DNA of 64,000 bases from Mytilus galloprovincialis (lineage: Eukaryota; Mollusca; Bivalvia; Mytilida; Mytilidae), in assembly GCF_965363235.1 (NCBI RefSeq), contig NC_134839.1, forward strand, positions 61,223,560-61,287,559. Reading direction: 5' to 3'. Both the position numbers and the translations under genes were made by a program. The notes under the pieces were generated by a model. That model had not been told where the DNA came from. It ran no database searches and saw only the letters and a program-made list of their open reading frames with translations. Below, piece by piece: positions 13,207 through 49,217 of this stretch; positions within the stretch are counted from its first letter, which is position 1; every line of letters begins with the position of its first letter.

Positions 13207-13702
13207 TTTTTTTTTATTTGAGGTATCTTATGACTTTAACTTTTAACTTTTTAATGGATTTTTTTAAATAAACAAACCACAAGAATATTGATTTACTAGC
13301 AGACAATACACAAGACGCAATATGCATTAATTTTTTGGTGGTGTTTTCGATGAATGTAAATCTAGAAAAGCACCTTTCATGCATACAATTTGTAACATGC
13401 TGCTTTGTTCACAATATCTGCTTATATTACAGTATGAAAAAAATATTATATCAACATAAAAATACTTATCTTGAACAGAAAATGACTATACCTGAGTTTG
13501 TCATGCAGTACTGTAACATCTAAACAGTTAACAAACTTTAGTCAAGGTAAGCTATTTTTAGATGTTTATATAACCTACATGTCACTAAACTAGTATCAAG
13601 GTGCATGTTGTCTCTACTGAATGTAAAGTTGATAATTCCCTACTTGATCATATATTAAATATAATCTAATTATCCATGCTTAAATTCTCATTTCTTCTGA
13701 CA

Positions 13703-13815
13703 AAAAAAGGGGTCCTCAACCTAGGAAAAAGGGGTTCCAACCATATGTCCCCATTCAAATGCATTGATCGTCCAAAAATAACATCAAACCCTCCCCTGGA
13801 TCTGCCCATGGTTAG
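13703..13815 (-). repeat. GGATCCAGGGG-type element fragment
   Basis: On the minus strand it reads GGCAGATCCAGGGGAGGG, followed by AAAGGGG and AAAAGGGG runs. GTGGCGGATCCAG at 26939-26951 and a related GGATCGACCCC passage near 60945 look like other ends of this class of short DNA elements. It begins exactly where homology with copy 2 stops, so it may mark the duplication border or a later insertion. Confidence 0.35.
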
Positions 13816-15212
13816 CATTTTGAAAACCAGCCATTTTCTACTTACTTGCATAAAGAAACACAAGTTTCTTAATTAACTAAGATAGAACCATTAAGCTAGT
13901 GATAATTCATTCACAATGATCACATTTTTCTAATTTAAACAAAGACAGAGGAAAAGAATCAACAAAAAATTCCCAAATGCTTCTTACAATGTTGAATTTT
14001 ACAATTTAGTGATTCATCAGACGAATAAGTAGAACATAATTCCATTGATCAATCATTCCTGGGTTACAGACGAGAGTGCATCCCTTGCCTATGGCCAAAC
14101 TGCATCTTAAATATACATTAGCAGGTCATTTGCTGAAGTAAGCATTTTTATTTAAAAAAAAATCCTCCATTACGATAAAAATGAAACAATGAACCTGTAT
14201 ATGAGAAATCTTTCCTATCAAACTTGTATGTTTTGTGGAACAATCCAAAATACTAATTGACTGAGGAGTAAAAGAGAAGAGTACATACTATGTATGGTGC
14301 TGTATGCAAATTTTGTGATGTCTATACGTTGGATTTTTTTTTAGAGTTCAACAAATACATAATAGTAAAGACACTTGTCTATTGTTGAAGACCCAATGTT
14401 GACATCAAAATATCTTTTATAGATTTTGTGCTGTTGGCTTGCTGTTTTAGAAATGTGTACCTCATATCTTTGTATTCCTATATAATATAAAAAATAAATC
14501 AACAATACCAAATTTACTTAAACTTTATGTTTGATATGAAATTTGATACATCTTTGAATATGATTGATCTTTAAAACACATTTATGATACAAAGGAAATC
14601 TTTCTCTTCCCTCTTTTCGTAATTTTGAAGTTTTGATAGAGAAATTTGGCTTAATACAAAATCAACAATATGTTTTCCTCACTATAAAATACATTTATCA
14701 ATTACACACAAAAATATCTTTTACAAGGACTTTTAAACTGGCTATAAGTTGATGAAATGCATTAAAAAAAAAGAAATAGAATGTTTGTGCCGTATGCAAT
14801 CCTAAAATTTATCATGTTCGCATATGTTGAATGATTTCTTATTACTTACATATTACAAAAGAAAATGAAAAGTATCTTGATCAATGTTGACATATGAGAT
14901 TCATTCTTTGTATAAAAAAACCCAATAATGATATATAAAACAGCATTTTATTTTGCACTTTCATATTTGTCAATAATTATTTTCAAGATACAAAATATAT
15001 CTGGTTTCAAAACCAGACATGTTGACCTACATCACTACACAATAGACCTTTTCTATCAACACAGTCGTTAATACAGGTCGGTATAAAATATTATTCACAA
15101 ATAGTTCCTGAGGTTTCAGAACTCTGAGTCAGGACTTCCGATAGAATTGTTCCTGTTAATTCCATCTTATAAAAACAATATTACATAGTTATTGCACCAA
15201 TAAATACAACTG
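13816..15212. other. Intergenic stretch between the 105-codon ORF and LSM2
   Basis: AT-rich sequence with homopolymer runs. I see no exon, RNA gene or repeat border in either strand here. The right side is presumably the 3' flank of LSM2. Confidence 0.5.
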
Positions 15213-15218
15213 TTTATT
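15213..15218 (-). promoter_or_regulatory. Candidate LSM2 polyadenylation hexamer
   Basis: AATAAA on the minus strand, touching the ancestral-frame TGA of LSM2 (15220-15218). It is unusually close to the stop, so a later signal may be used instead. Confidence 0.3.
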
Positions 15219-16487
15219 CATCTCTGTCTATTCTGAGCTGCCTCTTTTCTTGCTGCATCTTTGTAACAATTGCGTATCACATTCATCTGCAGGTAACTGT
15301 ACATATCTAACAACTGAACATCTAATAAAACAATTCTTCACTGATAACTGAAAAACAGAGCATGTAACTATTAACAATTCATTTTATACAAATCTTACTT
15401 ATTGTATTTATAATAATTAAGGATATCAAAGTAAACAAGTTACAGTTTTCTATGAATTTCAAGATTCACTCAAAAAGTACCCTTCAATTAAAACTAGCAA
15501 ATCAGACACTTTTCCCCATAAGCACATTGTTTCTATTTATATATCAAACGTTTTTTACTTGTTTTGATTTGGATTTGTAAATTAACTTTAATACTGCTTA
15601 TAATTTAATTTCAGTAAATAGTATCACAATTATAAATCGTCATCTTAAGTGAATCATTCTTTGAATTATGCTTTTTGTCTCCTCAGTATTTCCAGCATCG
15701 AGTTCATTTGTGCAACTTTTGATCTGAGTTAGGCAATCATGATTGAACACTTTGTGGGTATTATTTAGACACTTGATCAGCAATATAGATGTAAAGTGTA
15801 ATTGTTTAGTAACTGATAAGAAAAGACCTACCATATGTGGATATGTATCTGGATCTGTCACCTGTATGTCTGTTAATTTAATATTCAGGAACTGATCTAC
15901 TGAATGTAATGTACCACATATGCTACAAAATAAATAACATTTAAAGCAACACTATACATGAAAAATATTACAAAACATAGTACATGTATGGACAAATAAT
16001 TTAATACTAAATGGTGTATAAAATCTCAATTTTGGAATATAGTTCCTGTTCTTCAATAAAGCTAATGCTCATTTTATTTTAAGCAGTTATGTTTAGTTCT
16101 ATTATTATTCCTGTACTTCAGACTACTGTCTTAGAATTACTGTGATTAACTGGAACAACAAAGTATTTGAAGTTTTGTCAAATACATCAACATGCAGAAA
16201 TAGGCTCATCATTACAAGTTCATTATTCAGATCAAGACCAAATATCAAATTTTCCGATAATTCTGAAAAGAAATATGAAACAAAGGCTAGGGACAAAGCA
16301 AAAGGTGAATGCAGTTCACCAACCAGTTTGTACATTTGTATTTAGGGCCTGGGATGTTTATTAACATGATAAAAATAGCATATGTGCCATGTGGTGTGAT
16401 AACCTATAAGGCAAGTTTCCACCTAAGACCAAATCTTGTGAATGTAAGCAACTTTAGTATCTGTCTTTATTATTCTTGGATTCTTAC

Positions 16488-16555
16488 CTCAAATCATTCT
16501 TTAGTTCCACAACAACATCTTTACCAACTAAAGATTTGAAGAAAGAGTAAAACAA
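16488..16555 (-). other. LSM2: Duplicate LSM2 exon 2
   Basis: Second, downstream-in-transcript copy of the 68-nt exon: acceptor CTCAG|TTG and donor TTTGAG|GTAAGA, identical to 17958-17891. Using both exons in one mRNA shifts the frame (68 is not a multiple of 3), so they would have to be used alternatively. Confidence 0.85.
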
Positions 16556-16589
16556 CTGAGATCAGAAAAAAATAAACATTCATTTTTTT

Positions 16590-16880
16590 TACATAAATAA
16601 GGCCGTTAGTTTTCTCGTTTGAATTGTTTTACATTGTCTTATCAGGGCCTTTTATAGCTGACTATGCGGTATGGGCTTTGCTAATTGTTGAAGGCTGTAC
16701 GGTGACCTATAGTTGTTAATGTCTGTTTCATTTTGGTCTTTTGTGGATTGTTGTCTCATTGGCAATCATACCACATCTTCTTTTTTATATGATTAATATG
16801 TATAAATTCATTCATATTTTGATACAATTTAAATTATAGAAATGTGATTTGATTGCCAATGAGACAATTTTCTCCAATTT
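16590..16880. mobile_element. MITE-like repeat in LSM2 intron
   Basis: GACCTATAGTTGTTAATGTC, then TTGTCTCATTGGCAATCATA and CCACATCTTC at 16700-16785, with the reverse-oriented GATTGCCAATGAGACAATTT at about 16850-16870. These are ends of the widespread CCAATGAGACAAC family. The same arrangement is copied at about 17993-18283 by the tandem duplication. Confidence 0.5.
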
Positions 16881-17874
16881 TAATAAGCTCTGACAACAAA
16901 TGACCGGATGTAAGCAACAGCACATCACTGTCAGATATTTTGTATTATGAGGTCAAAATTTTACAGGAACCCTGAGGGATGTCCAGTAATATCAGACAAA
17001 AAGGATAAGGTGTTTAGTCAATACCTTAGGGATCGTCTATTGGAAATCTATGAATAACAATCCATGACAAATCGCCCCACTGGCAAATCACCCCATACCT
17101 TATCGCCCCACTTCCTGAATAATCGCCCCACTTATGAAAAAGGGTAAATTTCCATTGAAAATATGTTGGATAATTTTGCTCCATATATAAAAAGGGTAAA
17201 ATTCCCTCTGAAATAAGGTCTGCCAAATGCAACTCGTCCCACTTGTGAAAAATAGATAAATCCTGATGAATTTAATAATGCTAACTCGCCCCACTTGATG
17301 CAAAAGATGTAATCCCGTTGTATATCTATGTTCCTACCGCACTCATAATTAAAATCAATACCTATGAAAACCTTAGATAAACATGCTTTCCTTGTTTGAA
17401 TTGTTTTACTATAGTCGTTTTGGGGCCCTTTATTGTAACTTGGATGAAGTGTTGTTCCATAGGCACTCATACCCATCTAATTATATCTATTTTGTAGTTC
17501 TTTTCTTTTTGTTGAAATAAAGCAGAAATAAATGAGTATCAGTATTTCCAAGACATGAATGCCAACTAGCCCCACTTGTGTAAAATAGAAAAGCCCTAAT
17601 GAATCGAGTCATGCCCCTCATAGCCGTTTTTAAGTGGAGCGAGGTGGTATACCAGAAAATTATATAATATATTCATCTAGATTTTTACTTTATCATTAAT
17701 AAGTGGGGCAAGTTTGCTGGAGAAAAATTAACAGGATTTAACCGTTTTCACAAGTGGGGCGAGTTGGTAAACTAGTTTGAGGAGAGAATTTTTTTAAAAT
17801 GGGGCGAGTTGGTAAAAAAGTCACACTGGCAATCGTCTCAGAATTTTTTTCCCTTATATACCTTTATATAGCAC

Positions 17875-19277
17875 ATTCTTGGATTCTTACCTCAAATCAT
17901 TCTTTAGTTCCACAACAACATCTTTACCAACTAAAGATTTGAAGAAAGAGTAAAACAACTGAGATCAGAAAAAAATAAACATTCATTTTTTTTACATAAA
18001 TAAGGCCGTTAGTTTTCTCGTTTGAATTGTTTTACATTGTCTTATCAGGGCCTTTTATAGCTGACTATGCGGTATGGGCTTTGCTAATTGTTGAAGGCTG
18101 TACGGTGACCTATAGTTGTTAATGTCTGTTTCATTTTGGTCTTTTGTGGATTGTTGTCTCATTGGCAATCATACCACATCTTCTTTTTTATATGATTAAT
18201 ATGTATAAATTCATTCATATTTTGATACAATTTAAATTATAGAAATGTGATTTGATTGCCAATGAGACAATTTTCTCCAATTTTAATAAGCTCTGACAAC
18301 AAATGACCGGATGTAAGCAACAGCACATCACTGTCAGATATTTTGTATTATGAGGTCAAAATTTTACAGGAACCCTGAGGGATGTCCAGTAATATCAGAC
18401 AAAAAGGATAAGGTGTTTAGTCAATACCTTAGGGATCGTCTATTGGAAATCTATGAATAACAATCCATGACAAATCGCCCCACTGGCAAATCACCCCATA
18501 CCTTATCGCCCCACTTCCTGAAAAAATCGCCCCACTTATGAAAAAGGGTAAATTTCCATTGAAAATATGTTGGATAATTTTGCTCCATATATAAAAAGGG
18601 TAAAATTCCCTCTGAAATAAGGTCTGCCAAATGCAACTCGTCCCACTTGTGAAAAATAGATAAATCCTGATGAATTTAATAATGCTAACTCGCCCCACTT
18701 GATGCAAAAGATGTAATCCCGTTGTATATCTATGTTCCTACCGCACTCATAATTAAAATCAATACCTATGAAAACCTTAGATAAACATGCTTTCCTTGTT
18801 TGAATTGTTTTACTATAGTCGTTTTGGGGCCCTTTATTGTAACTTGGATGAAGTGTTGTTCCATAGGCACTCATACCCATCTAATTATATCTATTTTGTA
18901 GTTCTTTTCTTTTTGTTGAAATAAAGCAGAAATAAATGAGTATCAGTATTTCCAAGACATGAATGCCAACTAGCTCCACTTGTGTAAAATAGAAAAGCCC
19001 TAATGAATCGAGTCATGCCCCTCATAGCCGTTTTTAAGTGGAGCGAGGTGGTATACCAGAAAATTATATAATATATTCATCTAGATTTTTACTTTATCAT
19101 TAATAAGTGGGGCAAGTTTGCTGGAGAAAAATTAACAGGATTTAACCGTTTTCACAAGTGGGGCGAGTTGGTAAACTAGTTTGAGGAGAGAATTTTTTTA
19201 AAATGGGGCGAGTTGGTAAAAAAGTCACACTGGCAATCGTCTCAGAATTTTTTTCCCTTATATACCTTTATATAGCA
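17875..19277. repeat. 1403-bp tandem duplication, unit 2
   Basis: Second unit of the tandem pair starting at 16472. Its right end runs into unique sequence of the inverted-repeat element (GCACAAGGTACTTAAC), so this unit is the ancestral one and unit 1 the new copy. Confidence 0.95.
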
Positions 19278-20104
19278 CAAGGTACTTAACTTGCGATTTT
19301 GAAAAATGTCATACGGTGACGAAATTCCATTAAAAATGCCGGGTCTCGGCTGTCAACCCCACTAAAACTTGTTATGCCATAAATCTAAATGAATTTATCT
19401 TCACAATGGTGTATAACACGCCTACTGTTGTTGTCGGAATCATCCGTAGCAATCCTACCCAAGTATGTCAATCGTAATTATTTCGTCAACCTACACAAAA
19501 TTGGCAATACACGTCTCGCAGTAAACGATTAATTATAAAAATTGTTTCAGAAAAAACTGTTAGTTTTTGTATGAATAGAACTTATCATACAGTTAGTGAA
19601 ATTGAATAATATACCATGAAAAAAATGTAACAAGTGTCGTTTGTGGTATGTCTAATAAGTTACAAATTTTCCCATGACGTCAATGTCATGCAGACTCTCT
19701 CTTGACTTTAAGTATGAAATGAAACAAGATCAGATAACTCAGAGAATCATTTAGACTATCCCATAGAATTGACCAATCGGAAAATGAGACATACAAGGAG
19801 ACGTGACACGTTTATTGCCAATTGTTCAGCGGGTTTGCAAAATTATTACGATTGACATACTTTGGTAGGATTGCTACAGATGATTCTGACAACAAATGTA
19901 GGCATGTTATACACCATTGTAAAGATAAATCAATCTAGATTTACGATACAACAAGTTTTAGTGGGGTTGACAGCCTATAAAGCGGCATATAACGGAACTT
20001 CGTCACCACTTGACATTTTTCTAAAATGCAAGTTAAGTACCTTGTGTTATATAACGGTAAATTTTCTGAGACAAGTGCCTGTGGAAAAAGTGGGGCGATT
20101 TGTC
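18469..20104. mobile_element. Large inverted-repeat element with TCGCCCCACTT words
   Basis: The termini are inverted: GACAAATCGCCCCACT at 18469-18484 and its reverse complement at 20089-20104. Inner arms at about 19240-19525 and 19795-20072 are also inverted copies (for example GTCAACCCCACTAAAAC and GTTTTAGTGGGGTTGAC). Seven forward words like TCGCCCCACTT lie at 18475, 18490, 18506, 18526, 18636, 18690 and 18971. Five inverted ones lie at about 19036, 19105, 19156, 19201 and 20089. No transposase was seen and no clean target duplication found. It lies in LSM2 intron 1, and its left half was copied to 17066-17874. Confidence 0.6.
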
Positions 20105-20458
20105 CTGCTTCCATGAAGTAGATGTTCTTACACGACCTGTGTCGGACTAACTATTTATAAATAGGTCGTCGGGCTATTGCAGTGTCGAAAAGGTGTGGGG
20201 TAATTGGAATTTAGAGGCGACCCAGCTGGCCTTAGTTACTGCGTGACGCTCATCACCAAAGTGACACCGAACTTTTTACAGCAGAAAATGGTAAAATAGA
20301 TAGCTTGAGGCCATGAATAGACTTTCAACACAACTCCTCCTATACACTTTATAGTGTCAAATAGAGCTGATGGGCTGGCACAGCTTAAACATTGAAAGAT
20401 GAACGTTATTAAATGGAAATCAAAATGTAAAATTTTCATTCATGCTTTTACCCACCAT

Positions 20459-20712
20459 TTTGGATTTTTATCTCGTCATGAAGGAGATTTCACTACAATG
20501 AAAAATAAGGACAATCTTTATTCATAAATATATCAACCATAATATTTCTTTGTATTTGATGTTTCCAAAATTTACAATGACAATCGGAAAATTTTCTTAA
20601 AAGAACCGAAAAAAATAGATTTTGCATAGCCGGTCTTTGTTGTCACGTGACTGAAACGAGATCATAATTTGTAAAGCGAAAATAGCACTGTCATACAGCA
20701 GACAACTTGAAA
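20459..20712. promoter_or_regulatory. Bidirectional LSM2-PSMB1 promoter
   Basis: The 254 bp between the LSM2 ATG (minus) and the PSMB1 ATG (plus) must hold both 5' UTRs and the core promoters. No obvious TATA box is placed for either gene. A perfect palindrome GTCACGTGAC sits 62 bp before the PSMB1 start codon. Confidence 0.6.
20642..20651. promoter_or_regulatory. GTCACGTGAC E-box / CLEAR-type palindrome
   Basis: A perfect 10-bp palindrome with the CACGTG core, the class bound by bHLH-zip factors (USF, Myc/Max, MITF/TFEB). The full GTCACGTGAC matches the TFEB CLEAR consensus. Position in the shared promoter suggests co-regulation; binding is inference. Confidence 0.5.
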
Positions 20713-20801
20713 ATGACATCTGTACTCAGTGATATAAATCAGGAGGAGTCACATTATGCTCCTAAACAAGCATACTTCAATCCATATGAACAGAATGGAG
20801 G

Positions 20802-22500
20802 GTATTACATTTTTCCTCTCATGTAAAATTCACATATATCAGAAAGTAAATCAATGAATGTAAAAACTAAAATGATGCACATTCAAGTCATTTCACATAA
20901 TTTTGTTCTTTGAAACGATCATTTTATTGTCAATGAAACAGCTATCAACCTAAGAACAAGGCGTTGTTGTAAGCAAGCCGCCTGTCTGTCCACATGCTGA
21001 TTTTTTTTACATGGTTACAAGTTTCAACATGAGAGTAACTTTGCCATGACCAAGTTATACATACACCTTATCGCCATTTGTCCGCCATTACTGGATATCA
21101 CACAGGTTCCCATAAAATTTTGACTTCATAAAGCAAAATATCTGACGCCACAATGGAAAAGTGATCGTTGTATGCGTCAAAAGTTCAAGTGGCAGGCTCC
21201 GCCGGGATTAGCGATAAGTACGTGTATTGGGCATACACCATAATGTTACTAGCACCACTCAGACCTGCAACCTACGTAGCCTGATTTTGGTGGTATCATC
21301 CTGTTATTCATGCCTCAACCGGAATCCAGATATAGGGATCGTAAACAAGTCAAATCATTATTTAATTAATTTTCGTCAAACATGTCAAAGGCAATCATCA
21401 ATTCTGATTTTAAAATTATACTTTAATTTACATAGAAAAAAGATTTTTTCATACATGTATGTAACACATGCGTGAAATTGTTTTTAGCAAATTTAATATT
21501 AAAATGCAAATTGATTTCACGCTAAATTAAATGAGTGCAACTATTATCTGTTGTACAAATATTCATGTTGTAGTCAAACACTTTTAAAGATAATTAAGTT
21601 AAATAATAATAAAAGCAGGTGATTTCCTGTCAATTTGATAAACAAAACAAATCCAGAAATGAATCCAGAACTATTGTACTTTAATTTGATCGCAAAACGT
21701 CCGGTTTCAATTTAGTCAAATCGAAAGAAATGTAAGCAGTGTCTGGAAATTAACCAGCTTGATTCATTAAAATCATTTCAATTTTATACTGTTGCCTTCC
21801 TTAAACTGTTCTTGAAGGTAATGGTAAGACATTTACTCTGTAAATGCAATGAAACAGCAATACAAGTTCGTCAATTCTGTGAATCTAGTGAAGTTGAAAA
21901 GGGGCACCTGCTTAAAGTCTTTTCAATCATCTCAAAATGACCAAAATTGTATGCAAAAATTGTTAAAGTTTTACTATGATTTGTCAAATAACCTGATCCT
22001 GATTTGTCAGAACTCTCAAATAATTCTCATTATTTTTCGGAAAAAGAATAATGTGAATTGTCAAAATCAGTTCACTTTTTTCGTCTAAAGAAATTATCCA
22101 TTTAATTGTCTGACATGCACCAAAAATTAACGTTCAAGTCATTTGAGAAGAATCTTTCCGGTTATTTTTCATAAACAGGATAAAGGTACCCCCAATGAGT
22201 ACAACAGTCTGTTGTACCCATCTTAAAGAGAAAAAATACATAGTCAAGTTAAGAGTACTTTTTAAAAGAAATTAGTTTGAGCGCTGACCATAAATCATTT
22301 AATGAGGGTATGAATGCTCTTGACTGTCAGGCTTCAAATGGTCATTTTCCGTTACAGATAGCTTTAGATAGAAGTTGAAGAGTTGCTTATAAAAGAAATT
22401 AATTGTCTGATAAGTCCTTATGTTCACAAACCTGAATATGACAGCTGTTTGATGAAATTCACCAAATGACTTTGTTTGATTAAAAAACAGTGTTCCACCA
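20802..22500. other. PSMB1 intron 1, left part
   Basis: AT-rich intron. Apart from a GAATATGACAGCTGTT word near 22435 (GACAGTTGTT repeat family) I see no exon or element border before the Helitron-like element at 22501. Confidence 0.4.
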
Positions 22501-25500
22501 TTTTTATACGACCGCAAAAATTGAAAATTTTTTGGTTGTATATTAGTATCACCTTGGCGTCGTCGTCTGCGTCGTCGTCACATGCATCGTCCGAAGACAT
22601 TTGGTTTTCGCAATATAACTTTAGTATAAGTAAATAGAAATCTATAAAATTTACACTTAAGGTTTATGACCACAAAAGGAAGGTTGGGATAGATTTTGGA
22701 AGTTTTGGTTCCAACAGTTTAGGAATAAAGGGCCAAAAAAGGCCCAAATAAGCATTATTCTTGGTTTTCGCACGATAACTTTAGTACAAGTAAATAGAAG
22801 TCTATGAAATTTAAACACAAGGTTTTTGATTATAAAAGGAAGGTTGGGATTGATTTTGGGAGTTTTGGTCCCAACAGTTTAGGAATAAGGGGCCCAAAGG
22901 GTCCAAAATTAAACTTTGTTTGATTTCATCAAAAATTGAATAATTGGGGTTCTTTAATATGCCGAATCTAACTTTTGGTCCCGTTTTCAAATTGGTCTAC
23001 ATTAAGGTCCAAAGGGTCCAAAATTAAACTTAATTTGATTTTAACAAAAATTGAATCCTTGGGGTTCTTAGATATGCTGAATCTAAACATGTACTAAGAT
23101 ATTTATACGACTGCAAAAATTTAAATTTTTCGTCGTATATTGCTATCACGTTGGCGTCGTCGTCTGCGTCGTCGTCGTCTTCCGAATACTTTTAGTTTTC
23201 GCACTCTAACTTTAGTAAAAGTGAATAGAAATCTATGAAATTTTAACACAAGGTTTATGACCACAAAAGGAAGGTTGGGATTGATTTTGGGAGTTTTGAT
23301 TCCAAAATTTTAGGAATTAGGGGCCAAAAAGGGCCCAAATAAGCATTTTCTTGGTTTTCGCACAATAACTTAAGTTTAAGTAAATAGAAATCTTTGAAAT
23401 TTTGACACAAGGTTTATAACCACTAAAGGAAGGTTGGTATTGATTTTGGGAGTTTTGGTTCTAACAGTTTAGGAATAAGGGGCCAAAAAAGGGCCCAAAT
23501 AAGCATTTTCTTGGTTTTCGCACAATAACTTAAGTTTTAAGTAAATAGAAATCTATGAAATTTTGACACAAGGTTTATGACCACTAAAGGAAGGTTGGGA
23601 TTGATTGTGGGAGTTTTGGTTCTAACAGTTTAGGAATTAGGGGTCAAAAAAGGGCCCAGATAAGCATTATTCTTGGTTTTCGCACAATAACTTTAGTTTA
23701 AGTAAATAGAAATCAATAAAATTTAAACACAAGGTTTATGACCACTAAAGGAAGGTTGGTATTGATTTTGGGATTTGAGGTCCCAACAGTTCAGGAATAA
23801 GGGCCCAAAGGGTCCAAAATTGAACTTAGTTTGATTTCATCAAAAATTGAATAATTGGGGTTCTTTGATATGCTGAATCTAACTGTGTATGTAGATTCTT
23901 AATTTTTGGTCCCATTTTCAAATTGGTCTACATTAAGGTCCAAAGGGTCCAAAATTAAACTTAGTTTGATTTTGACAAAAATTGAATCCTTGGGGTTCTT
24001 TGGTATGCTGAATCTAAAAATATACTTAGATTTTTGATTATTGGCCCAGTTTTCAAGTTGGTCCAAATTGGGTCCAAATTAAACTTTGTTTGATTTCATC
24101 AAAAATTGAATAATTGGGGTTCTTTGATATTCCAAATCTTACTGTGTATGTAGATTCTTAATTTTCAGTCCCGTTTTCAAATTGGTCTACATTAAAGTCC
24201 AAAGGGTCCAAAATTAAACTAAGTTTGATTTTAACAAAAATTGTATTCTTGAGCTTTTTTGATATGCTGAATCTAAACATGTACTTAGATTTTTGATTAT
24301 GGGCCCAGTTTTCAAGTTGGTTCAAATCAGGATCCAAAATTATTATATTAAGTATTGTGCAATAGCAAATATTTTCAATTGCACAGTATTGTGCAATAGC
24401 AAGAAATATCTAATTGAACAATATTGTGCAATAGCAAGAAATTTTCAATTAATTTGAGTTATCGTTCTTTGTCCAGAATAGTAGTTGAATCAACTTAAAT
24501 CATGTTTTATACAATATATAATGTATATTCACTTTTACTACCAACTGATAAATTAAAACAATCTTTACCATTCAGTGATAACAAGCACCTTTTGTTACAT
24601 TTTAATATTTTATGATGTATTTAAATGAGTAGTTATTGTTGCAAACTCCATTAGAAATTTAAATTGAGATCAGTTTTGGTAAAAGGGAAAGGGGGATGTG
24701 AAAAAAAAATGATGGTGGGGGGTGGGGTTAAATTTTTTCACTTCAGATTTCTTAAATAAAAAGAAAATTTCTTCAAACATTTTTTAGAGAGGATTAATAT
24801 TCAACAGCATAGTGAATTGCTCAAAGGAAAAAAAAAGTATTTTAAGTTCATTAGACCACATTCATTCTGTGTCAGAAACCTATGCTGTGTCAACTATTTA
24901 ATCACAAACCAAATTTAGAGCTGAATCCAGCTTGAATGTTGTGTCCATACTTGCCCCAACTGTTCAGGGTTTAACCTCTGCGGTCGTATAAAGCTGCGCC
25001 CTGCGGAACATCTGGTTTATTATGGGCCCAGTTTTCAAGTTGCTCCAAATCGTGGTCCAAAATTAAACTTTGTTTGATTTCAACAAAAATTGAATCCTTG
25101 GGATTCTTTGATATGCTGAATTTAAACATGTACTTAGATTTTTTATTATGGGCCCAGTTTTCAAGTTGGTCCAAATCGGGGTCCAAAATTAAACTTTGTT
25201 TGATATCAACAAAAATTGAATCCTTGGGGTTCTTTGATATGCTGAATCTAAACATGAACTTAGATTTTTGATTATAGGCCCAGTTTTCAAGTCGGTCCAA
25301 ATTGGGGTCCAAAATTAAACTTTGTTTGATTTCAACAAAAAATGTATATTTGGGGTTCTTTAATATATGATTAATCTAACCATGTATTTAGATTTTTGAT
25401 GTTTGGGCCCGGTTATGAAATTGGTCCACATTGAGGTCTAAAGGGTCCACAATTGAACTCTATTTGATTTCATCAAAAATTGAATTCTTGGGGTTCTTTG

Positions 25501-25763
25501 ATATGCTGAATCTAACCATGTATTTTGATTTTGGATATTGGACCATAATAGGTAATGTCCAATTTAAAATTTAAAGTTTTTAAGTTTAAGTTCTTGGACC
25601 ACATTCATTATGTGTTGGAAACCTGTTTTGTGTCAACTATTTAATCACAATCCAAATTCAGAGCTGTATAGGTACCAAGCTTGAATGTTGTGTCCATACT
25701 TGCCCCAATGTTCAGGGTTCGAACTCTGCACTCCTATAAAGCTGCGCCCTGCGAAGCATCTGG
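22501..25763 (+). mobile_element. Helitron-like element, outer copy (interrupted)
   Basis: It begins TTTTTATACGACCGCAAAAA and ends with a GC-rich stem-loop (GCTGCGCCCTGCGAAGC) followed by ATCTGG|T, the CTRR-type 3' end known for Helitrons. A TATACGACC / TATAAAGC subterminal pairing is partly visible. The interior is arrays of about 165 bp (TTGGTTTTCGCACAATAAC units) and about 135 bp (CAAAAATTGAATAATTGGGG units). It is interrupted by a second element of the same family at 23101-25015. No Rep/helicase ORF, so non-autonomous. Family assignment is inference. Confidence 0.6.
23101..25015 (+). mobile_element. Helitron-like element, inner copy (nested insertion)
   Basis: It starts ATTTATACGACTGCAAAAAT, carries the GGCGTCGTCGTCTGCGTCGT stretch near 23152, and ends CTGCGGTCGTATAAAGCTGC then CATCTGG|T at 25015. 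The outer element's sequence is split on either side: CTAAACATGTACTAAGAT before, TTATTATGGGCCCAG after. An intact version of this junction is seen at about 25244-25285. It also contains short AGTATTGTGCAATAGCAAG repeats near 24350-24440. Confidence 0.6.
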
Positions 25764-25946
25764 TTTTCAATAAAAAAAACATAGGGGAATAATCCAATCA
25801 TTAAAAATATAGGAAAACTGTCATTGATGATGAAATCACTTTTTCAGGACAGTTGCGGGTGAAGATTTTTCAGTAATAGCATTAGATACAAGGTTGAGTC
25901 AAGGATTTTCTATACACACGAGGGATCTACCAAAGACCTATAAATT

Positions 25947-28137
25947 GTAAGTTAAATGAGTAAACATGGAATCTTCAATTTTTTGGTTGATAATATTTCT
26001 TACGGGGCCTTGGTGGCAAATGGTCTCAGTTCATGTTATTCATAGACGGTATTACCAGCCTATATGGCAAGTGCATTAGACTTTAATCTTGGCCAGTGTC
26101 GTCAGTTTTCATGCTGAAGTTTGTAGTTCTTTCCTCAGGCTCCAGCTTATGGCACCAATATAATCATGATAATACAGTTGGTGTTTTGTTTAAGTTGTTC
26201 AAGTTTCCTATTTTACATATATTTCTTGTGCCTCTTGCACTCAGAAAGTATATTTATATATATACATGTAATAAATGTTAATTTTAAGATATTTCTGTAG
26301 TTCATAATTGACCATGTGATGTTTATTTTCTCAATACACCATATTTATTGAAACAACAGTTGGTAATTATTGTTGAACATGTTCATGCTGTTGGACAATA
26401 ACAGAGATGGAGGATTTAATGACAGTTTTGACAAGAAACATAGTTAAGAGTTAATTTTCTTTTCTTTTGTAGAACATCTTCAACAGTTCTTGGAGCATGT
26501 GGTTTCCATGGAGATACACTGACACTAAGATTTTACAAGCAAGACTTAAAATACGCTACAACTTTTGTTTTATTGTATAGATGGAAGTACCTTAAACATA
26601 CATATTATTATTAATATAATTCTAATCATTTGGTTTAAAAATAGTTTATAATATAAACTGTTTTTGGTAGAAATCAGTGGCGTAGCCAGGGTTGAAATGA
26701 TGTGGATGTCTAGGCGCCTTGCGGAGCGAGGCGAAAAAAAATTTGGACCTTTTTATGCAGAAAATTACTTTTTATTTAAGCACATGTACTCCCACAGAAT
26801 CCGACACTAGTTAGATTTTTGTTTAAATTCATAATTACCACCATTACATATATTTATATTTTTAACCAAATGTTATTGTTTTCTCGAAACTACCATCATT
26901 CAATTTATAAATATTTGATGTAAAGTTTCCCACCCCAGTGGCGGATCCAGAAATTTTCATAAGTGGACTGCCTAAGAGGGAGCATGCTTCAGTGATTCCC
27001 TATATAAGCAACCAAATTTTTCGCAGAAAAGGGGAGAACCTTACATGCAACCTACGCCACTGGAAATCAACCGTATGCAAATTCACATACATGACATATA
27101 CATTTATAAGACTTAGTTGATTTCGGAACATTCAAATAGGAAACAAAATATGAATGTAACTCTTGTTTTGTAGGGTACTTATAACAATTTAATTTAACGA
27201 ACAGTTACAAACATTCCGTAGATATTTTCCAACCAAAATAGGTTAACAGATGTACATGTATTGATATTCGTTTGTACACGGTCCATTTCTATCCGACGCA
27301 GCTCATTTGATATCTTTTGGAGAAATCCCATATTCTACATGTAGTTTAAACGGTATATATTTATATGACAAGCTATAACAATCTTTCTTATTTATGTGTT
27401 TATAATGCGTTTCCTAGTTTTTACTTGTAACTTTAATTAGTTTGAGATGTTTATGTTTAAATTTATCTCCAAATCCTACAGTCTGAGTGGCCCGAAATTA
27501 AAATTAAAAACAGAACATATGAAATAACTTTAACGTCTATGAATGGTATAAGAAAATTATATAGTTGTCATGACAATAATTGTCATCATGATCAAGTCAA
27601 CATTTGTTTTCCTCAATCTGTTGGTAAAAAAGAAGGTAATTTTATATGAATCTGACAGGTTCAAGCCAGAAGTATGTCAATTTATGATATGTACAGTAAC
27701 TAAAGCATAAATAATTTCTTGCTATAGAATAAATATTTATATGCAGTTATATAATTGTTACATGTACATGTTCATGATGAATGTACTTTTAATATTACAT
27801 TTTGCACATTACCTTTTTGATTAACTGATTATTGATTTTATTTAGCTTCATTTATTTCATCATAATCTGGATATAGGAATATTAATTAACAGGATTTGAA
27901 ATGATAGTGGACAGAAAAAGGGTACAGATAATTCAAACTACTACTATGGTCAGTTTAGAGGTTAAGAGCTTCTTAAATGGGGCAAAAAGTAAGTCATACA
28001 CCTATTACATACACAGCAAAGATGACAAGAAACATCCCTTATGCTTTATGACTAGTGTTTGCAAAAAAAAAATCAAATGGAAACTGTCTTTGATACACAT
28101 ATTTGGATTTGCTAATTATTTCCAACTTTTTCCCCAG
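25947..28137. other. PSMB1 introns 2 and 3 (around damaged exon 3)
   Basis: Intron 2 is 25947-26472, and intron 3 runs from about 26551 to 28137. No additional intact exon 3 was found here. Two short element-end motifs are present: AGTGGCGTAGCCAGG at about 26675 and AGTGGCGGATCCAGAAATTT at about 26937, with GGCGCCTTGCGGAGCGAGG at about 26715. The rest is plain AT-rich intron. Confidence 0.5.
26675..26960 (+). repeat. GTGGCGTAGCC / GTGGCGGATCC element fragments
   Basis: CAGTGGCGTAGCCAGG and, 260 bp on, CCAGTGGCGGATCCAG. Both are terminal motifs of short DNA elements widespread in animals (recall). Full borders and target duplications are not visible, so these are probably two fragments. Confidence 0.35.
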
Positions 28138-28713
28138 ATGTATGAACACGAACACAACAAGAAAATGTCAACAACAGCTGTAGCTGCCATGTTGTCTATC
28201 ATGCTTTACTCCAGGAGGTTCTTCCCCTTTTATGTCTATAACATTGTAGCTGGGCTAGATGAGGAAGGTTAGTTCAATAGTTGATAATTATCATGATTAT
28301 ATTGCACAGACACTTTGAAGCTTTCCAAGATAACAAAAGAATAGAATGTATATTTTTTTATTTCAACAAAATGTTACATAGAACAGACATTAGTTTTACT
28401 TTTCAAGCATGGATACAAAGCATCTTCATTGAATCCTAAAAAATATATTCTAATTAGGTCCATTTGGAATCAATACTTCTGATATATTATTGGTATAAAT
28501 GGTGATCAGTTGGATGTTGAATTTGAGGCTTCAAGCTTTCAATCATTCTTAGGTGACTTTGAAACTGATATACTTTGAATGTTAGGTTTTCTCATTATGT
28601 GTGTTTAAGGAGAAGTATTTTACAACCCAATGTATCATGCGACTATAGCATCTTTTTAAAGCAGAATCAAGGTAACAATCTGTCATCCTTTATTAACTTT
28701 TTTATTATTTTTA

Positions 28714-30509
28714 GCTCACCTGGCCCAAAGGGCCAAGTGAACTTTTCTCATCACTTGGCGTCCGTCGTCCGTCGTCGTCCGTCGTCGTCCGTCGTTAACT
28801 TTTACAAAAATCTTCTCCTCTGAAACTACTGGGCCAATTTCAACCAAACTTGGTTACAATCATCATTGGGGTATCTAGTTTAAGAATTGTGTCCGATGAC
28901 CCGGCCAACCAACCAAGATGGCCACCATGGCTAAAAATAGAACATAGGGGTAAAATGCAGTTTTTGGCTTATCACTCAAAAACCAAAGCATTTAGAGCAA
29001 ATCTGATTGGAGTAAAATTGTTAATCAGGTCAAGATCTATCTGCCCTGAAATTTTGAGATGAATCGGACAACCCGTTGATAGGTTGCTGCCCCTGAATTG
29101 GTAATTTTAAGGAAATTTTGCTGTTTTTGGTTATTATCTTGAACATTATCATAGATAGAGATAAACTGTAAACAGCAAAAATGTTCAGTAAAGTAAGATC
29201 TACAAATAAGTCAACAGGATCAAAATGGTCTGTTGACCCCTTTAGGAGTTATTGCCCTTTATAGTCAATTTTTAACCATTTTTCGTAAATCTTAGTCATC
29301 TTTTACAAAAATCTTCTCCTCTGAAACTACTGGACCAAATTTAACCAAACTTGACCACAATCATCATTGGGGTATCTAGTTAAAAAAATGTGTCCGGTGA
29401 CTTGGCCAACCAACCAAGATGGCTGCCATGGCTAAAAATAGAACATAGGGGGTAAAATGCAGTTTTTGGCTTATCACTCAAAAACCAAAGCATTTAGAGC
29501 AAACCTGACATCGGGTAAAATTGTTTATCAGGTCAAGATCTATCTGCCCTGAAATTTTGAGATGAATTGGACAACCTGTTGATAGGTTGCTGCCCCTGAA
29601 TTGGTAATTTTAAGGAAATTTTGCTGTTTTTGGTTATTATCTTGAATATTATTATAGATAGAGATAAACTGTAAACAGCAAAAATGTTCAGTAAAGTAAG
29701 ATCTACAAATAAGTGAAACAAGACCAAAATGGTCTGTTGATTTCTTTAGGAGTTATTGCCCTTTATAGTCAATTTTTAACCATTTTTCGTAAATCTTAGT
29801 TATCTTTTACAAAAATCTTCTCCTCTGAAACTACTGGGCCAAATTAAACCAAACTTGGCCACAATCATCATTGGGGTATTTAGTTTAAAAATGTGTCTTG
29901 TGACCTGGCCAACCAACCAAGATGGCCGCCATGGCTAAAAATAGAACATAGGGGTGAAATGTAGATTTTGGCTTATAACTCTGAAACCGCAGCCTTTAGA
30001 GCAAATCTGACATGGGGTAAAATTGTAAATCAGGTCAAGATCTATCTGCCCTGAAATTTTCAGATGAATCTGACAACCTGTTGTTGGGTTGCTGCCCCTG
30101 AATTGGTAATTTTAAGGAAATTTTGCTGTTTTTGGGTCTAAATAAATTATCTTGAATATTATTATAGATAGAGATAAACTGTAAACATCAATAATGTTAA
30201 GCAAAGTAAGATTTACAGATAAGTCAACATGACGGAAATGGTCAATTGACCCCTAAGGAGTTATTGTCCTTTATAGTCAATTTTTAACAATGTTCATAAA
30301 ATTTGTAAATTTTAACTAACATTTTCCACTGAAACTACTGAGTTCATTATAGATAGAGATAATTGTAAGCAGCAAGAATGTTCAGTAAAGTAAAATGTAC
30401 AAACACATCACCATCACCGAAACACAATTTTGTCATGAATCCGTCTGCTTCCTTTGTTTAATATTCACATAGACCAAGGTGAGCGACACAGGCTCTTTAG
30501 AGCCTCTAG
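28714..30509 (+). mobile_element. Helitron-like element with about 500-bp internal tandem units
   Basis: It starts at CTCACCTGGCCCAAAGGGCC and ends at a hairpin GGCTCTTTAGAGCC, then TCTAG|T, a CTRR-type Helitron 3' end. Three near-copies of a roughly 500-bp unit begin with TTTACAAAAATCTTCTCCTC at 28801, 29302 and about 29806, followed by a shortened fourth near 30325. A GTCCGTCGTCGTCCGTC simple repeat precedes the units. It is in PSMB1 intron 4 and has no helicase ORF. Non-autonomous Helentron-associated elements with central tandem arrays are known in bivalves; the assignment is inference. Confidence 0.6.
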
Positions 30510-30785
30510 TTTATATTGTATAAAGTTTATGGCTAGACATCTAAATTTTTGAAGATTTTTTTGTAATATTCCATTGGTATTTGTAATAATACTACTAACA
30601 CATACATTTCATTCATTTTGATAAAAGGTTTTAGAAATATGTTTTTGGCCTTTTTGTAGTTTTTAGATGCTTCATTAAATTGAGAATGGAAACAGGGAAT
30701 GTGTAAAAAAACCAAGTAAACTGTATGCACTTATTTGAACAATAGTGGATGGTTGTGTCATTATCAATCATACCACATCTTCCTA

Positions 30786-32603
30786 TTTTTATACGACCGC
30801 AAACATTTTAATTTTTTGGTCGTATATTGCTATCACGTTGGCGTCGTCGTCGTCCGAATACTTTTAGTTTTCGCACTCTAACTTTAGTAAAAGTGAATAG
30901 AAATCAATGAAATTTAAACACAAGGTTTATTACCACAAAAGGAAGGTTGGGAACTTGGGATTGATTTTGGGAGTTTTGGTTTCAACAGTTTAGGAATTAG
31001 GGGCCAAAAAAGGGCCCAAATAAGCATTATTCTTGGTTTTCGCACAATAACTTTAGTTGAAGTAAATAGAAATCAATGAAATTTAAACACAAAGTTAATG
31101 ACTACAAAAGGAAGGTTGGTATTGATTTTGGGAGTTTAAGTCCCAACAGTTTAGGAATAAGGGGCCAAAAAGGGACCCAAATAAACATTTTTCTTGGTTT
31201 TCGCAACATAACGTTAGTATAAGTAAATAGAAATCTATGAAATTTAAACACAAGGTTTATGACCATAAAAGGAAGGTTGGTATTGATTTTGGGAGTTTTG
31301 GTCCCAACAGAATAAGGGGCCCAAAGGGTCCAAAATTAAACTTTGTTTGATTTCATCAAAATTGAATAATTGGGCTTCTTTGATATGCCGAATCTAACTG
31401 TCATGACTGTGTATGTAGATTCCTTACTTTTGGTCCCGTTTTCAAATTGGTCTACATTAAGGTCCAAAGGGTCCAAAATTAAACTTAGTTTGATTTTAAC
31501 AAAAAATGAATCAGTTAGGTTCTTTGATATGCTGAATCTAAAAATGTACTTAGATTCTTGATTATTGGCTCAGTTTTCAAGTTGGTCCAGATCGGGGTCA
31601 AAAATTAAACTTTGTTTGATTTCATCAAAAATTGAATAAATGGAGTTCTTTGATATACCAAATATAACTGTGTATGTAGATTCTTCATTTTTGGTCCTGT
31701 TTTCAAATTGGTCTACACTAAAGTCCAAAGGGTCCAAAATTAAACTTAGTCTGATTTTAACAAAAATTGAAATCTTGGGGTTCTTTGATATGCTGAATCC
31801 AAAAATGTACTTAGATTTTTTTATTATGGGTCCAGTTTTCAAGTTGGTCCAAATCAGGATCTAAAATTATTATATTAAGTATTGTGAAATAGCAAGTCTT
31901 TTCAATTGCACAGTATTGCGCAATGGCAAGAAATATCTAATTGCACAATATTGTGAAATAGCAAATTTTTTTTTAATTAGAGTTATCTTTCTTTGTCCAG
32001 AATAGTAAGCAAGAAATATCTAATTGCAAAATATTGTGCAATAGCAAGATTTTTTTTTAATTGGAGTTATCTTTCTTTGTCCAGAATCAACTTAAATCTT
32101 TGTTATATACAATATACAATGTATATTCACTTTTTACTACCAACTGATAAATTAAAATAATCTTTACCATTCAATGATAACAAACAGTTTTTTTTACATC
32201 TTAATATTTTATGATGTATTTAAATGAGTAGTTATTGTTGCAAACTCCATTAGAAATTTTAATTGAGATTAGTTTTGGAATAAGGGAAAGGGGGATGTGA
32301 TTAAAAAAATTGGGTTCAATTTTTCTCATTTGAAATTTCATAAATAAAAAAGAAAATTTCTTCAAACATTTTTTTGAGAGGATTAATGTTCAACAGCATA
32401 GAGAATTGCTCTAAGAGAAAACAAAAATTTTAAGTTCATTAGAACACATTCATTCTGTGTCAGAAACCTATGCTGTGTCAACTATTCAATCACAATCCAA
32501 ATTTAGAGCTGAATCCAGCTTGAATGTTGTGTCCATACTTGCCCCAACCGTTCAGGGTTCAACCTCTGCGGTCGTATAAAGCTACGCCCTGCGGAGCATC
32601 TGG
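30786..32603 (+). mobile_element. Helitron-like element (TTTTTATACGACCGC family)
   Basis: Same family as 22501-25763: start TTTTTATACGACCGCAAACA, GGCGTCGTCGTCGTCCG, arrays of TTGGTTTTCGCAC units, AATAGCAAG repeats near 31880-32045, and the end GGTCGTATAAAGCTACGCC followed by CATCTGG|T. It appears complete at both ends. Confidence 0.6.
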
Positions 32604-33954
32604 TTGGAGTTGAGGTAACAACAGTTTAGGAATTAGGGGCCAAAAAAGGGCCCAAATAAGCATTATTTTTGGTTTTTGCACCATAACTTTAGTATAAGTA
32701 AATAGAAATCTATGAAATTTAAACACAAGGTTTATGACCATAAAAGGAAGGTTGGGTTTGATTTTGGGAGTTTTGGTCCCAACAGTTTAGGAATAAGGGG
32801 CCCAAAGGGTCCAAAATTGAACTTTGTGTGATTTCATCAAAAATTGAATAATTGGGGTTCTTTGATATGCCAAATCTAACTGTGTATGTAGATTCTTAAT
32901 TTTTGGTCCAGTTTTCAAATTGGTCTACATTAAGGTCCAAAGGGTCCAAAATTAAACTAAGTTTGATTTTAACAAAAATTAAATTCTTGGGCTTATTTGA
33001 TATGCTTTATCTAAACATGTACTTTGATTTTTGATTATGGGCCCAGTTTTCAAGTTGGTCCAAATCAGGATTCCATATCAAGTATTGTGCAATAGCAAGA
33101 AATTTTCAATTGCACAGTATTGCACAATAGCAAGAAATATCTAATTGCACAATATTGTGCAATAGCAATTAATTTTCAATTGGAGTTATCTTTCTTTGTA
33201 TAGAATAGTAGTTGATTATGTATGTTGGAAATTTGCCAAACATGACTATGATGTCATTTTCTATTTCAATTTGCCAATAACTTTATGTAAATAACTTCAT
33301 TGGAAATTTGCCAATATAAAATGTTGCTGATGAAGCTTTTTTTCCTTATCTTATCTAAAATGTTTTTAGATAATGTATGTTGGACATTTGCCAGACATGA
33401 CTATTTACATTTTGGATATTGAACCATAATAGTTTAATATTAAATTTAAAAACTTTAAATTCTAATTTTAATTTCTTAAACCAAATTCATAATGTGACAT
33501 AAACCTATGTTGTGTCAACTATTTAATCACAATCCACATTTATAGCTGTATCAAACTTAAAAGTTGTGTCCATACTTGTTCTCATTTCAGATTTCATAAA
33601 TATAAAGAAAATTTCTTCAAACATTTTTTTGACAGGATTAATATTCAACAGCATAATGAATTGCTCAAAGGCAAAAAAATTTTAAGTTCATTAGACCACA
33701 TTCATTCTGTGTCAGAAACCTATGCTGTGTCAACTATTTAATTTTAGATTTAAATAAGTTTGAAGAAGAAATCTTTAATTGATTTGTAAAATCTTGACAT
33801 TTGTTTTGTGTAAAAAACGCATATAATGTCAAAAATTTGATCACAATCCAAATTCAGAGCTGTATCACGCTTAAATGTTTTGTCCATACCTGCCCCAACT
33901 GTTCAGGGATCGACCTCTGCGGTCGTATAAAGCTGCGCCCTGCGGAGCACCTGG
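32604..33954 (+). mobile_element. Helitron-like element, 5'-truncated, abutting the previous one
   Basis: It begins inside the family's interior (ACAACAGTTTAGGAATTAGG) with no ATACGACC start, and ends GGTCGTATAAAGCTGCGCC then CACCTGG|T at 33954, only 37 bp before PSMB1 exon 5. It includes additional spacer such as TGTATGTTGGAAATTTGCC not seen in the other copies. Confidence 0.55.
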
Positions 33955-34098
33955 TTATATAAACTAATGAGATTTGATATTTTATTTGTAGGTAAAGGAT
34001 GTGTATTCAGTTTTGATCCTGTAGGATCTTATGAAAGGGAAACATACAGAGCAGGAGGATCAGCCAGTGCTATGTTACAACCTTTACTAGATAACCAG

Positions 34099-35048
34099 GT
34101 TAGCATGACAAAAAAAAAAAAGACTAGAAAAGATTTTGAAAATATTTAGATAAAAATTTGGACATCAAATAATGTCCTAAGAAATCAAATTGCTTACCTT
34201 TTTCAAAAATGATAATTAGAAATCAAATCATACACCTTATACATGTATAATATTGAATTATAGTATTAGGATCGAATTGAATCCTTTCTATTTGTTTATA
34301 AAATAAAAGAGAGAATTAAATTATATACATTACATGCCTTATACATGAATATAAAATTTATGTACATCATTGGTTCAGTCAGAGAAATATCAAATGGCAT
34401 GGTATAATAAGGCATTATTTTTGGTGCAAAGTCTACATATATTTATTTCTTTTCCAAAGTAGGTTGGAGTTTGGGTTCGAGCATTTCTTCAATAATTGCA
34501 ACTATTGATAGTTTTTCAGTTGATGAATATTATTTAGAAGTGGAGGACCACACCAAATTTGGGTGACCTTTACCACTTTTCACATATTTTTGCTTGGTTT
34601 TGCATTAAGATAAGTTTCAAAGCAGCTATTCACAAATCAGAGAGAAATGATCTTTTTGTCTAACAGGTGACACAACATGTTTAGTGACTAAGTTCTACAG
34701 TTAACTTAGATAACCATGACTTGAATTCATTTATGGATGAATGGCTATATTTTTTTTATAAAGGTGCAGATCCAAGCAAATACAAATCTAAGTGGGATTA
34801 TCCTTTGCAAGTTGATGCATCATTTTCAGTAAACGAAGATGTTCTTGAATTATATGACCTTGATATTTAATAATGATTGAATTTCTTTCAAATAAGAATG
34901 GGATTGTTCTGAAAAAGCTAAATGATATACATGTACTAAATTGGCATTAAAACAATGTTAGTTATTTACCATTTATACAATGTATCACACATGACTGGTA
35001 TGACAAACATGAAATAGATGCTTGATTTTGATTATTTTGTACTTTTAG
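34099..35048. other. PSMB1 intron 5
   Basis: Ordinary AT-rich intron between GT donor 34099 and AG acceptor 35047-35048. No element border or extra exon seen. Confidence 0.6.
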
Positions 35049-35304
35049 ATTGGTTTTAAGAATCAACATGGAGTAACCAAAACACCTTTATCACAAGAGA
35101 AAGCTATTAAATTAGTTAAAGATGTGTTTATATCAGCTGCAGAAAGAGACATATACACTGGTGATGCTATTGTATTAAACCTAATTACAAAAGATGGAGT
35201 TAAAGTGGAAACTTTCCCTCTGCGTAGAGATTAACTTCTATAATCTCATTGACTTAGTGCTTTGTTTGTAAAATCTCCATTATATTTCACTGTGACAAGT
35301 TCAT

Positions 35305-35310
35305 AATAAA
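35305..35310 (+). promoter_or_regulatory. PSMB1 polyadenylation hexamer
   Basis: AATAAA 71 bp after the PSMB1 stop codon, a normal spacing for a short 3' UTR. Confidence 0.55.
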
Positions 35311-35949
35311 ATATCATAAAACATGGTTTCTTGTTGATTTCTGCCATTTTATATAAGTTTCAAATTGCCAAATATCAACATACAATTCTTAAATTGTCTC
35401 AATTCATTTCAATCCAATACCTTATTTGTCATGGAAATGGGTTGCTCATTCTGATAACATAATTGTAATAATACATACAAAGTTAAACATGAATTAAAAA
35501 AATGTCAAAACAATTAAGCAGACTACCCCAAACACCAAAGTCTTCCATAAATATACTTAAAAACAATAACAACAGATAGTTGGACTTGATACAGGAACAA
35601 GTTTTGGTGGGGTTGAATCCATCTTTTGTGATTACAAAAACAAACTACCTTATATGATGTGATTTATTTACTGTTTATTGGTACTAAATACTGAAAAAGT
35701 TTGTAATTGCTTGGAAAAATATAACAGAAATGTAAAAAGGGCAGATGGATAAAATAATAACAGTCTGGTTTGAATTTTGGGATTGAAACAGTTGTACATG
35801 AATCTTCTAGTAACAGTACAATGAATGTTCTATTCAGGTGAAAACCAAAAGGAGAAGATGTAAATAACTTTTAAGATTTTCATTTATATCTTTTTAAAAT
35901 TGTGATAATACAAAACTAACAGGCATTCTGTGAGTATTGCATTGCAATA

Positions 35950-36600
35950 CATAGTCCCCTAACAGTTAAAAAAATCATTGTTTTGGAACAAAATTTGAAC
36001 TTCATCTATAAATTGTCATGGTGTAGACTATAAAACAAATATCAATATCTTCATGATGAAGTGTTGAAAATTGATTATTTTAAAAGTTAATTTTCAAAGT
36101 CCAAGTACCATAACTGTGCACAAAATCATCAGACCTGAACAAAATTCGAACTTGATCTGAAACGTGTCATGATAAAACTATATACCAATTCTCAAATCAA
36201 TATCTTCAAGAACTACCAAAAAAATTGTGGAAATCTGCTTCTTTTAGGGTATTTTCTAAGTCTAAGGACCATAAATCTGCACAAAATCATCAGACCTGAA
36301 CAAACTTGAACTGTAACTTGTCATGATAAACTATATACGAATTCTCAAATCAATATATTCAAGAACGACAAAAAAAGTGGACAACTGCTAACGGTATTTT
36401 ATTGAATTTTCTTAGTCAAAGGACCATAACTTCAAACTGGAACAAAATTCTAACTTGATTTGTAACTGGTCATGATAAAATCATACACCAAATATCAAAT
36501 CAATATATTCAAGCATGACCAAAAAAATATGTGGAAAACCTGTTTGACGGACAGACAGATGGACAGAGTTCAAATCTAAAGTTCGGTAGGGGACCGTAAA
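35950..36600. mobile_element. Non-autonomous element with TAGTCCCCTA ends and internal repeats
   Basis: Left end ATAGTCCCCTAACAG at about 35950 and right end TTCGGTAGGGGACCGTAAAA at about 36580-36600 are inverted near-copies. Between them, three loose repeats of about 130-170 bp contain ACCATAA, ATCAGACCTGAACAAA and CATGATAAAACTATATACC. A GACGGACAGACAGATGGACA stretch precedes the right end. No ORF of note. Confidence 0.5.
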
Positions 36601-37238
36601 AACAGGTAGTTAAAAATCTAGGATGTCACAGGAAAGCCAATTATAAGCATTTTGCAAAAATGGAGTTTTTTTATTTGACCTTCAAGACCTATAAGGAATT
36701 TGAAAACCAACTTAAAATTGTACCAAACTGCTCATTTATGTTGATGTCTCTCTTATACATATCAGTATTTAATTTGTCTTGAATTTGCTTGAAATATTTG
36801 CAACTGAACATTATGCAAACAACAATGAACTGTTTTATACTTGACATGTGTAATCAGAGTGTGTGTCAACGTTTCATAATAGCCTAAGACAGAACTAATA
36901 TTATCTGAGCATCACTGATGAGTATTATGTAGAGGAAAAGTGGGTCTGGCATATCAAATTATTAGCCTGGTACCTTTGATAGGTATTCACAATTGTTTAC
37001 AAAGTATGACATCAAATTCATTCAGAATAGATAAAGATACGTGTTTTCTTTATTTTCTGTACAGACGGTTATACATTGATTATCACTAGAACTTACGTGC
37101 AGGACATACTCAAAACTAACACTCATATGATGAACAGTCAAAATAACTTATAAGACGTATGACCGTGTACTATGTATTTTCCTGAATTAATTGTAAGCTA
37201 TTTAGATGGCCAAAAATACTGCCTCTGAGCCTGAAGAA
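36601..37238. other. Intergenic stretch between convergent PSMB1 and GMC copy 2
   Basis: It contains an old fragment of the GACGCGCGTTTCGTCTAC family at about 36903-36985 (ATCACTGATGAGTATTATGT, then TGGTACCTTTGATA). The right side is the 3' flank of GMC copy 2. Nothing else recognised. Confidence 0.45.

Positions 37239-49217
<11,979 letters not shown>

Follow-up and report, generated by a model that had tools for sequence, protein, structure and literature searches.

The segment analysed here, hereafter the window, is a 64,000-nucleotide stretch of the genome of the mussel Mytilus galloprovincialis (C2:61223560-61287559, where C2 is contig NC_134839.1), and positions below are window positions unless C2 or the joined stretch is stated. 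It contains two essential housekeeping genes in head-to-head arrangement, LSM2 on the minus strand and PSMB1 on the plus strand. Both are damaged, and their gene ends lie at 15218 and 35234, the outer limits given in a preliminary description of this DNA. In the assembly, the damaged pair forms part of the second copy of a direct tandem duplication, which also includes a gene for a GMC oxidoreductase, while an intact LSM2-PSMB1 pair is located in the first copy.

Results

Self-comparison of 104 contiguous kb revealed a direct head-to-tail repeat in which positions 20411-53702 of the joined stretch (unit A) match positions 53702-91483 (unit B), and the two units abut. The units measure 33.3 kb (A) and 37.8 kb (B), and each contains LSM2, PSMB1, and one GMC oxidoreductase gene. 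The order on the chromosome is thus LSM2-PSMB1-GMC, LSM2-PSMB1-GMC, followed by an older broken GMC copy. The preliminary description had the damaged block inserted between two GMC duplicates, which is not the mechanism indicated by this order: the GMC gene belongs to the same tandem unit, and the pair stands between two GMC copies because the unit LSM2-PSMB1-GMC repeats. Across 30,054 aligned bases, units A and B differ by 468 substitutions (1.56%), and there are 102 insertion or deletion (indel) events, the largest of which is a 3.2-kb insertion in B; these rates are approximate, because they rest on one MAFFT alignment and the units are internally rearranged. The coordinates of all features are collected in Table 1.

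At the duplication junction, the two units share only 3-5 A of homology, and no N bases occur in the 124 kb of sequence analysed. The left edge of the unit sits within a dispersed repeat that is truncated by the junction (40 of its 2258 candidate copies were scored, and all 40 matched). Homologous recombination between repeats at the unit ends is not favoured as an origin, as the sole shared family seen in 2 kb of each outer flank occurs in opposite orientations and its members are approximately 71-73% alike. An 84-base-period tandem array of approximately 0.9 kb (C2:61202288-61203213) is located outside the window, about 0.75 kb left of the left edge of the duplication.

The intact LSM2-PSMB1 pair is found at C2:61205498-61220953, just upstream of the window and 33-38 kb from copy B, in equal orientation. 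The six coding exons of PSMB1-A, separated by GT-AG introns, give an open frame of 233 amino acids, and LSM2-A is open over 96 amino acids with GT-AG splice sites. When compared with the chains of solved structures, PSMB1-A aligns gaplessly with the PSMB1 chains of proteasomes from residue 15 to the end, and LSM2-A aligns gaplessly with an LSm2 chain over 95 residues. We take the PSMB1 chains to be mammalian and the LSM2 chains to be human (the one aligned over 95 residues) and yeast, the entries themselves showing codes and molecule names. Searches of the whole assembly (1,384,861,812 bases in 331 contigs) at the DNA level returned two matches for PSMB1 exon 4 and two for LSM2 exon 3. In keeping with the genus, the myticin family gave 17 hits in this assembly and none in any of 14 control genomes, which are prokaryotic where a name is given. 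Myticins are typical of Mytilus. PMC7653742 covers them among the antimicrobial peptides. Protein searches (E<=0.001) returned 12 matches for PSMB1, 11 of them in the two loci and one remote at 24% identity, and eight matches for LSM2, seven in the two loci and one remote at 32% identity. The preliminary description had proposed that the damaged block is a redundant copy with a functional pair elsewhere, and had named a genome-wide search as one test of it. The search bears this out within the assembly, in which one intact pair was found and the same protein searches detected no third pair.

Lesions in copy B were called base by base against intact copy A, and all of those listed in the preliminary description are present: the doubled exon 2, the exon 4 frameshift, and Gly64Cys in LSM2, together with the 9-nt and 4-nt losses and the missing exon 3 donor in PSMB1. 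In LSM2-B, the additional A in exon 4 replaces the last 13 residues (DAARKEAAQNRQR) with RCSKKRGSSE and a stop, and Gly64Cys results from a GGT to TGT change. A local 1.4-kb tandem duplication, whose copies differ at three positions, has doubled exon 2, and inclusion of both exon copies would shift the frame, since 68 nt is not a multiple of three. Taken by itself, the doubling of this exon is not regarded as lethal, as one copy could be skipped; with one exon 2, the frame is open to residue 83 of 96, after which the shifted tail begins. Intron 1 of LSM2-B also harbors an inverted repeat (19260-20062) with arms of 73 and 144 nt that are 85% and 88% complementary, possibly a fold-back element.

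If PSMB1-B is spliced as it stands, the frame is lost in exon 3. A cryptic donor capable of rescuing the frame was considered, and the downstream GTACC, judged by eye only, fails to do so. The 9-nt and 4-nt deletions look like products of replication slippage and not of base-calling error, because they run between CAGT and ACT words, respectively. The preliminary description regarded the remaining exons as clean, which holds for PSMB1 exons 5 and 6, neither of which carries an amino acid change. It does not hold for LSM2 exon 3 (K50T) or for PSMB1 exons 1 (H7D) and 4 (T114I), and PSMB1 exon 2 carries S45L in addition to its deletion. The introns of PSMB1-B are rich in repeats: intron 4 contains three copies of a tandem repeat of approximately 500 bases (28794-30219), and introns 1 and 4 contain dense arrays of related repeats (22570-25700 and 30800-33955) with spacings of approximately 126-161 bases. 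The array block at 30800-33955 coincides with the 3.2-kb stretch that is absent from unit A.

The lesions of frame, deletion, or donor type all fall in copy B (4/4), as do the four missense changes that can be polarised (4/4; five missense changes in all, His7Asp not being polarisable). Residues 45 and 114 of PSMB1-A agree with the solved PSMB1 chains, and residues 50 and 64 of LSM2-A agree with both LSM2 chains. For coding comparisons, 228 of 234 PSMB1 codons (stop included, six gapped codons left out) and all 97 LSM2 codons were used. Over 993 coding bases the LSM2-PSMB1 pair has three indels, where the non-coding rate predicts 3.6; the 522 codons of GMC have none, where it predicts 5.6 (P=0.004). 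The pair shows five amino acid-changing and three silent differences, and GMC three and five, respectively, all of them small counts. Silent divergence is similar in the two (3/217 sites in the pair and 5/337 in GMC), as would be expected if a single duplication had copied both.

The GMC comparison concerns nine exon pieces and not the whole gene, with at least one exon between two pieces not located. One piece of GMC-B matches the Pfam family GMC_oxred_C over the cut-off, and a second matches only NAD_binding_8, below the cut-off. No likely splice-site change between GMC-A and GMC-B was seen by eye in the 25 bases beside each piece. The intron between exon pieces 2 and 3 of GMC-B contains a long AG/CT microsatellite (48168-48446), which can be read as an extended frame of Ser-Leu or Glu-Arg and is shorter in GMC-A. 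The third, older GMC copy looks like a decayed remnant, and the last three exon pieces of GMC-A have no match right of unit B. An Rfam scan of the window returned no family at the gathering score.

Table 1. Positions of the tandem units, their genes, and the changes found in copy B
Feature	Position in window	Strand	Remarks
Unit A	Starts outside the window at C2:61203970, ends at junction 13702		Upstream of unit B
GMC-A, GMC gene of unit A	1..11440	-	Last exon pieces at and just left of window start
Duplication junction, run of 7 A	13702..13708	.	Unit end (GAC + 5 A) meets unit start (5 A + G), no N
Unit B, second copy of tandem duplication (LSM2, PSMB1, GMC)	13702..51483	+	Self-comparison, alignment
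LSM2-B exon 4 (130 nt; 129 in A)	15218..15347	-	+1 A frameshift, Gly64Cys, one synonymous change
LSM2-B exon 3 (91 nt)	15832..15922	-	Lys50Thr
Local 1.4-kb tandem duplication with LSM2 exon 2	16472..19278 (16472-17874 + 17875-19278)	.	Single in unit A
LSM2-B exon 2 (68 nt), one copy	16488..16555	-	
LSM2-B exon 2, other copy (68 nt)	17891..17958	-	
LSM2 start codon (coding end of exon 1)	20456..20458	-	GTGGGT donor immediately after; identical in A and B; assigned from sequence
254 bases between LSM2 and PSMB1 start codons	20459..20712	.	Putative shared promoter region; 5/254 bases differ from A
PSMB1-B exon 1 (89 nt)	20713..20801	+	His7Asp, not polarisable
PSMB1-B exon 2 (99 nt; 108 in A)	25848..25946	+	In-frame 9-nt deletion between CAGT repeats; Ser45Leu
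PSMB1-B exon 3 (78 nt; 82 in A)	26473..26550	+	Frameshifting 4-nt deletion between ACT repeats
PSMB1-B exon 3 donor, lost	26551..26552	+	AT; GT in copy A
PSMB1-B exon 4 (130 nt)	28138..28267	+	Thr114Ile, rest as in A
PSMB1-B exon 5 (107 nt)	33992..34098	+	Identical to A
PSMB1-B exon 6 (186 nt)	35049..35234	+	One synonymous change
GMC-B, GMC oxidoreductase gene of unit B	37242..49217	-	Nine exon pieces, 522 codons, no stop, no indel vs GMC-A
Third, older GMC copy	55931-63721	-	Five GMC-A exon pieces match at 77-88%, 2/5 with in-frame stop

Discussion

We consider it very probable that this locus results from a young tandem duplication, after which the redundant LSM2-PSMB1 pair of copy B became unprocessed (duplicated) pseudogenes. 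A segment of approximately 33 kb, comprising LSM2 on the minus strand, the divergent PSMB1 on the plus strand, and GMC, would have been copied in head-to-tail order, the new join arising at a short A-run, which is suggestive of a microhomology-mediated origin. Copy A would have retained both housekeeping genes, leaving LSM2 and PSMB1 of copy B redundant. The copy B pair could then have accumulated slippage-type deletions, a mutated splice donor, a frameshift, amino acid replacements at conserved positions, and a locally doubled exon, presumably decaying at a roughly neutral rate, while the GMC gene of copy B would have remained open.

Several features that define an unprocessed pseudogene are found in the copy B pair. 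Exon-intron structure is kept, as all six PSMB1 coding exons, LSM2 exons 2-4, and the exon 1 start codon of LSM2 occur in the parental order; disabling lesions are present (the two deletions and the donor loss in PSMB1 and the frameshift in LSM2); and the intact parent exists in the same genome. A processed pseudogene, or retrocopy, is ruled out by the introns present in B. The indel and substitution counts of the pair also point towards a loss of coding constraint, but they are small. Loss of function is suggested at the sequence level for the copy B pair, although not equally for the two genes: PSMB1-B is almost certainly dead, and LSM2-B only probably so, because its lesions are individually milder.

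Unprocessed pseudogenes that arise after tandem segmental duplication are alike in keeping their introns, in having an intact parent adjacent, and in confining frameshifts, splice loss, and missense changes to one copy. There is no essential difference from such cases, except that two divergent genes decay together here while the third gene of the unit remains open. Variation in gene presence and copy number in Mytilus, as described in one report (PMC7653742), is likewise comparable: the duplicate is young, the genus shows widespread hemizygosity, and divergence lies in the allelic range. The present case differs in that it involves housekeeping genes and is known from one assembly. A search for the head-to-head arrangement of LSM2 and PSMB1 found no report of it in the library of papers covered.

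Several explanations other than duplication and decay have to be weighed. A and B may be two alleles placed side by side by the assembler, in which case B would represent a haplotype with null alleles. The resemblance to false heterotype duplications, which likewise show copies side by side at allelic-level divergence (PMC9516828), is clear, and the divergence of the units does not exceed the heterozygosity reported for Mytilus: allelic divergence in M. galloprovincialis is given as 1.73% (PMC7653742) and 3.27% (PMC11183127). PMC9516828 names as marks of false duplication a halved read depth, gaps that separate the copies, discordant linked reads, and one-copy k-mers. It also describes same-scaffold cases in heterozygous genomes, some of them joined by wrongly filled gaps and not by N, so that the absence of N does not exclude these. 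However, the gap mark is absent at this locus, where the junction is direct, and 3-5 A is judged too short for an overlap join. The microhomology at the junction and the copy-specific decay of two essential genes further set the locus apart from such artefacts. For two neighbouring essential genes to carry several independent lesions, the haplotype would presumably have to hold a working copy as well, and a haplotype without LSM2 and PSMB1 could hardly persist long enough to gather them. We therefore regard a false duplication as unlikely.

Consensus errors in long reads, which the preliminary description named as the main competing cause, could in principle have produced the lesions in a functional pair. 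The additional A in LSM2-B is a run-length change typical of such reads, and of the 43 single-nucleotide indels that separate the units, approximately half (21) lie in homopolymers of four or more. The repeat-flanked deletions of PSMB1-B do not conform to this pattern, and substitutions account for G64C, K50T, S45L, T114I, and the altered donor. Moreover, GMC-B is without any indel in its compared codons, and with an intact second pair available the damaged pair does not need to be rescued by assuming such errors; this explanation is the least probable of those considered. It is also very improbable, if slightly less so, that copy B still yields a useful product, be it an LSM2-B made with a single exon 2 or regulatory transcripts that start at the putative common promoter. 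The long open frame of LSM2-B with one exon 2 and the few differences in the intergenic bases would be compatible with such a product. However, PSMB1-B has both a frameshift and a lost donor, and G64C and K50T in LSM2-B hit residues common to what we take to be the human and yeast LSM2 chains.

Some observations weigh against duplication followed by decay. The divergence between A and B is near the allelic level and cannot by itself tell paralogues from alleles. It is also uneven along the unit, as the first kb (13702-14700) contains 46 differences (approximately 4.6%) against a mean of 15.6 per kb. The ratios of changing to silent differences provide no clear contrast on their own given the small numbers, and the difference in indels between the pair and GMC is borderline (Fisher P=0.058). 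Finally, coding substitutions in the pair number 8 in 993 bases (0.8%), or approximately half of the unit-wide value. This low divergence fits a constrained A together with a free B, but it also fits early or part-time constraint on B.

Because A/B divergence falls in the allelic range, the duplication may still be polymorphic. A more speculative idea, to which we attach a low probability, is that the duplication was kept for a useful extra copy of GMC, that the LSM2-PSMB1 pair was a passenger that was switched off, an extra dose in two stoichiometric complexes being neutral or harmful, and that the duplication may still segregate. If this were true, the dose of GMC would vary among individuals, and only some of them would carry the dead pair.

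The case is one of ordinary gene duplication followed by decay, and the apparent paradox of two broken essential genes is explained without new biology. For annotation, the locus serves as a warning, as the broken pair should be labelled as pseudogenes and the intact pair lies next door. It also illustrates on a small scale how genes copied in a single unit can fare differently, as two genes of stoichiometric complexes decay and a metabolic gene stays open.
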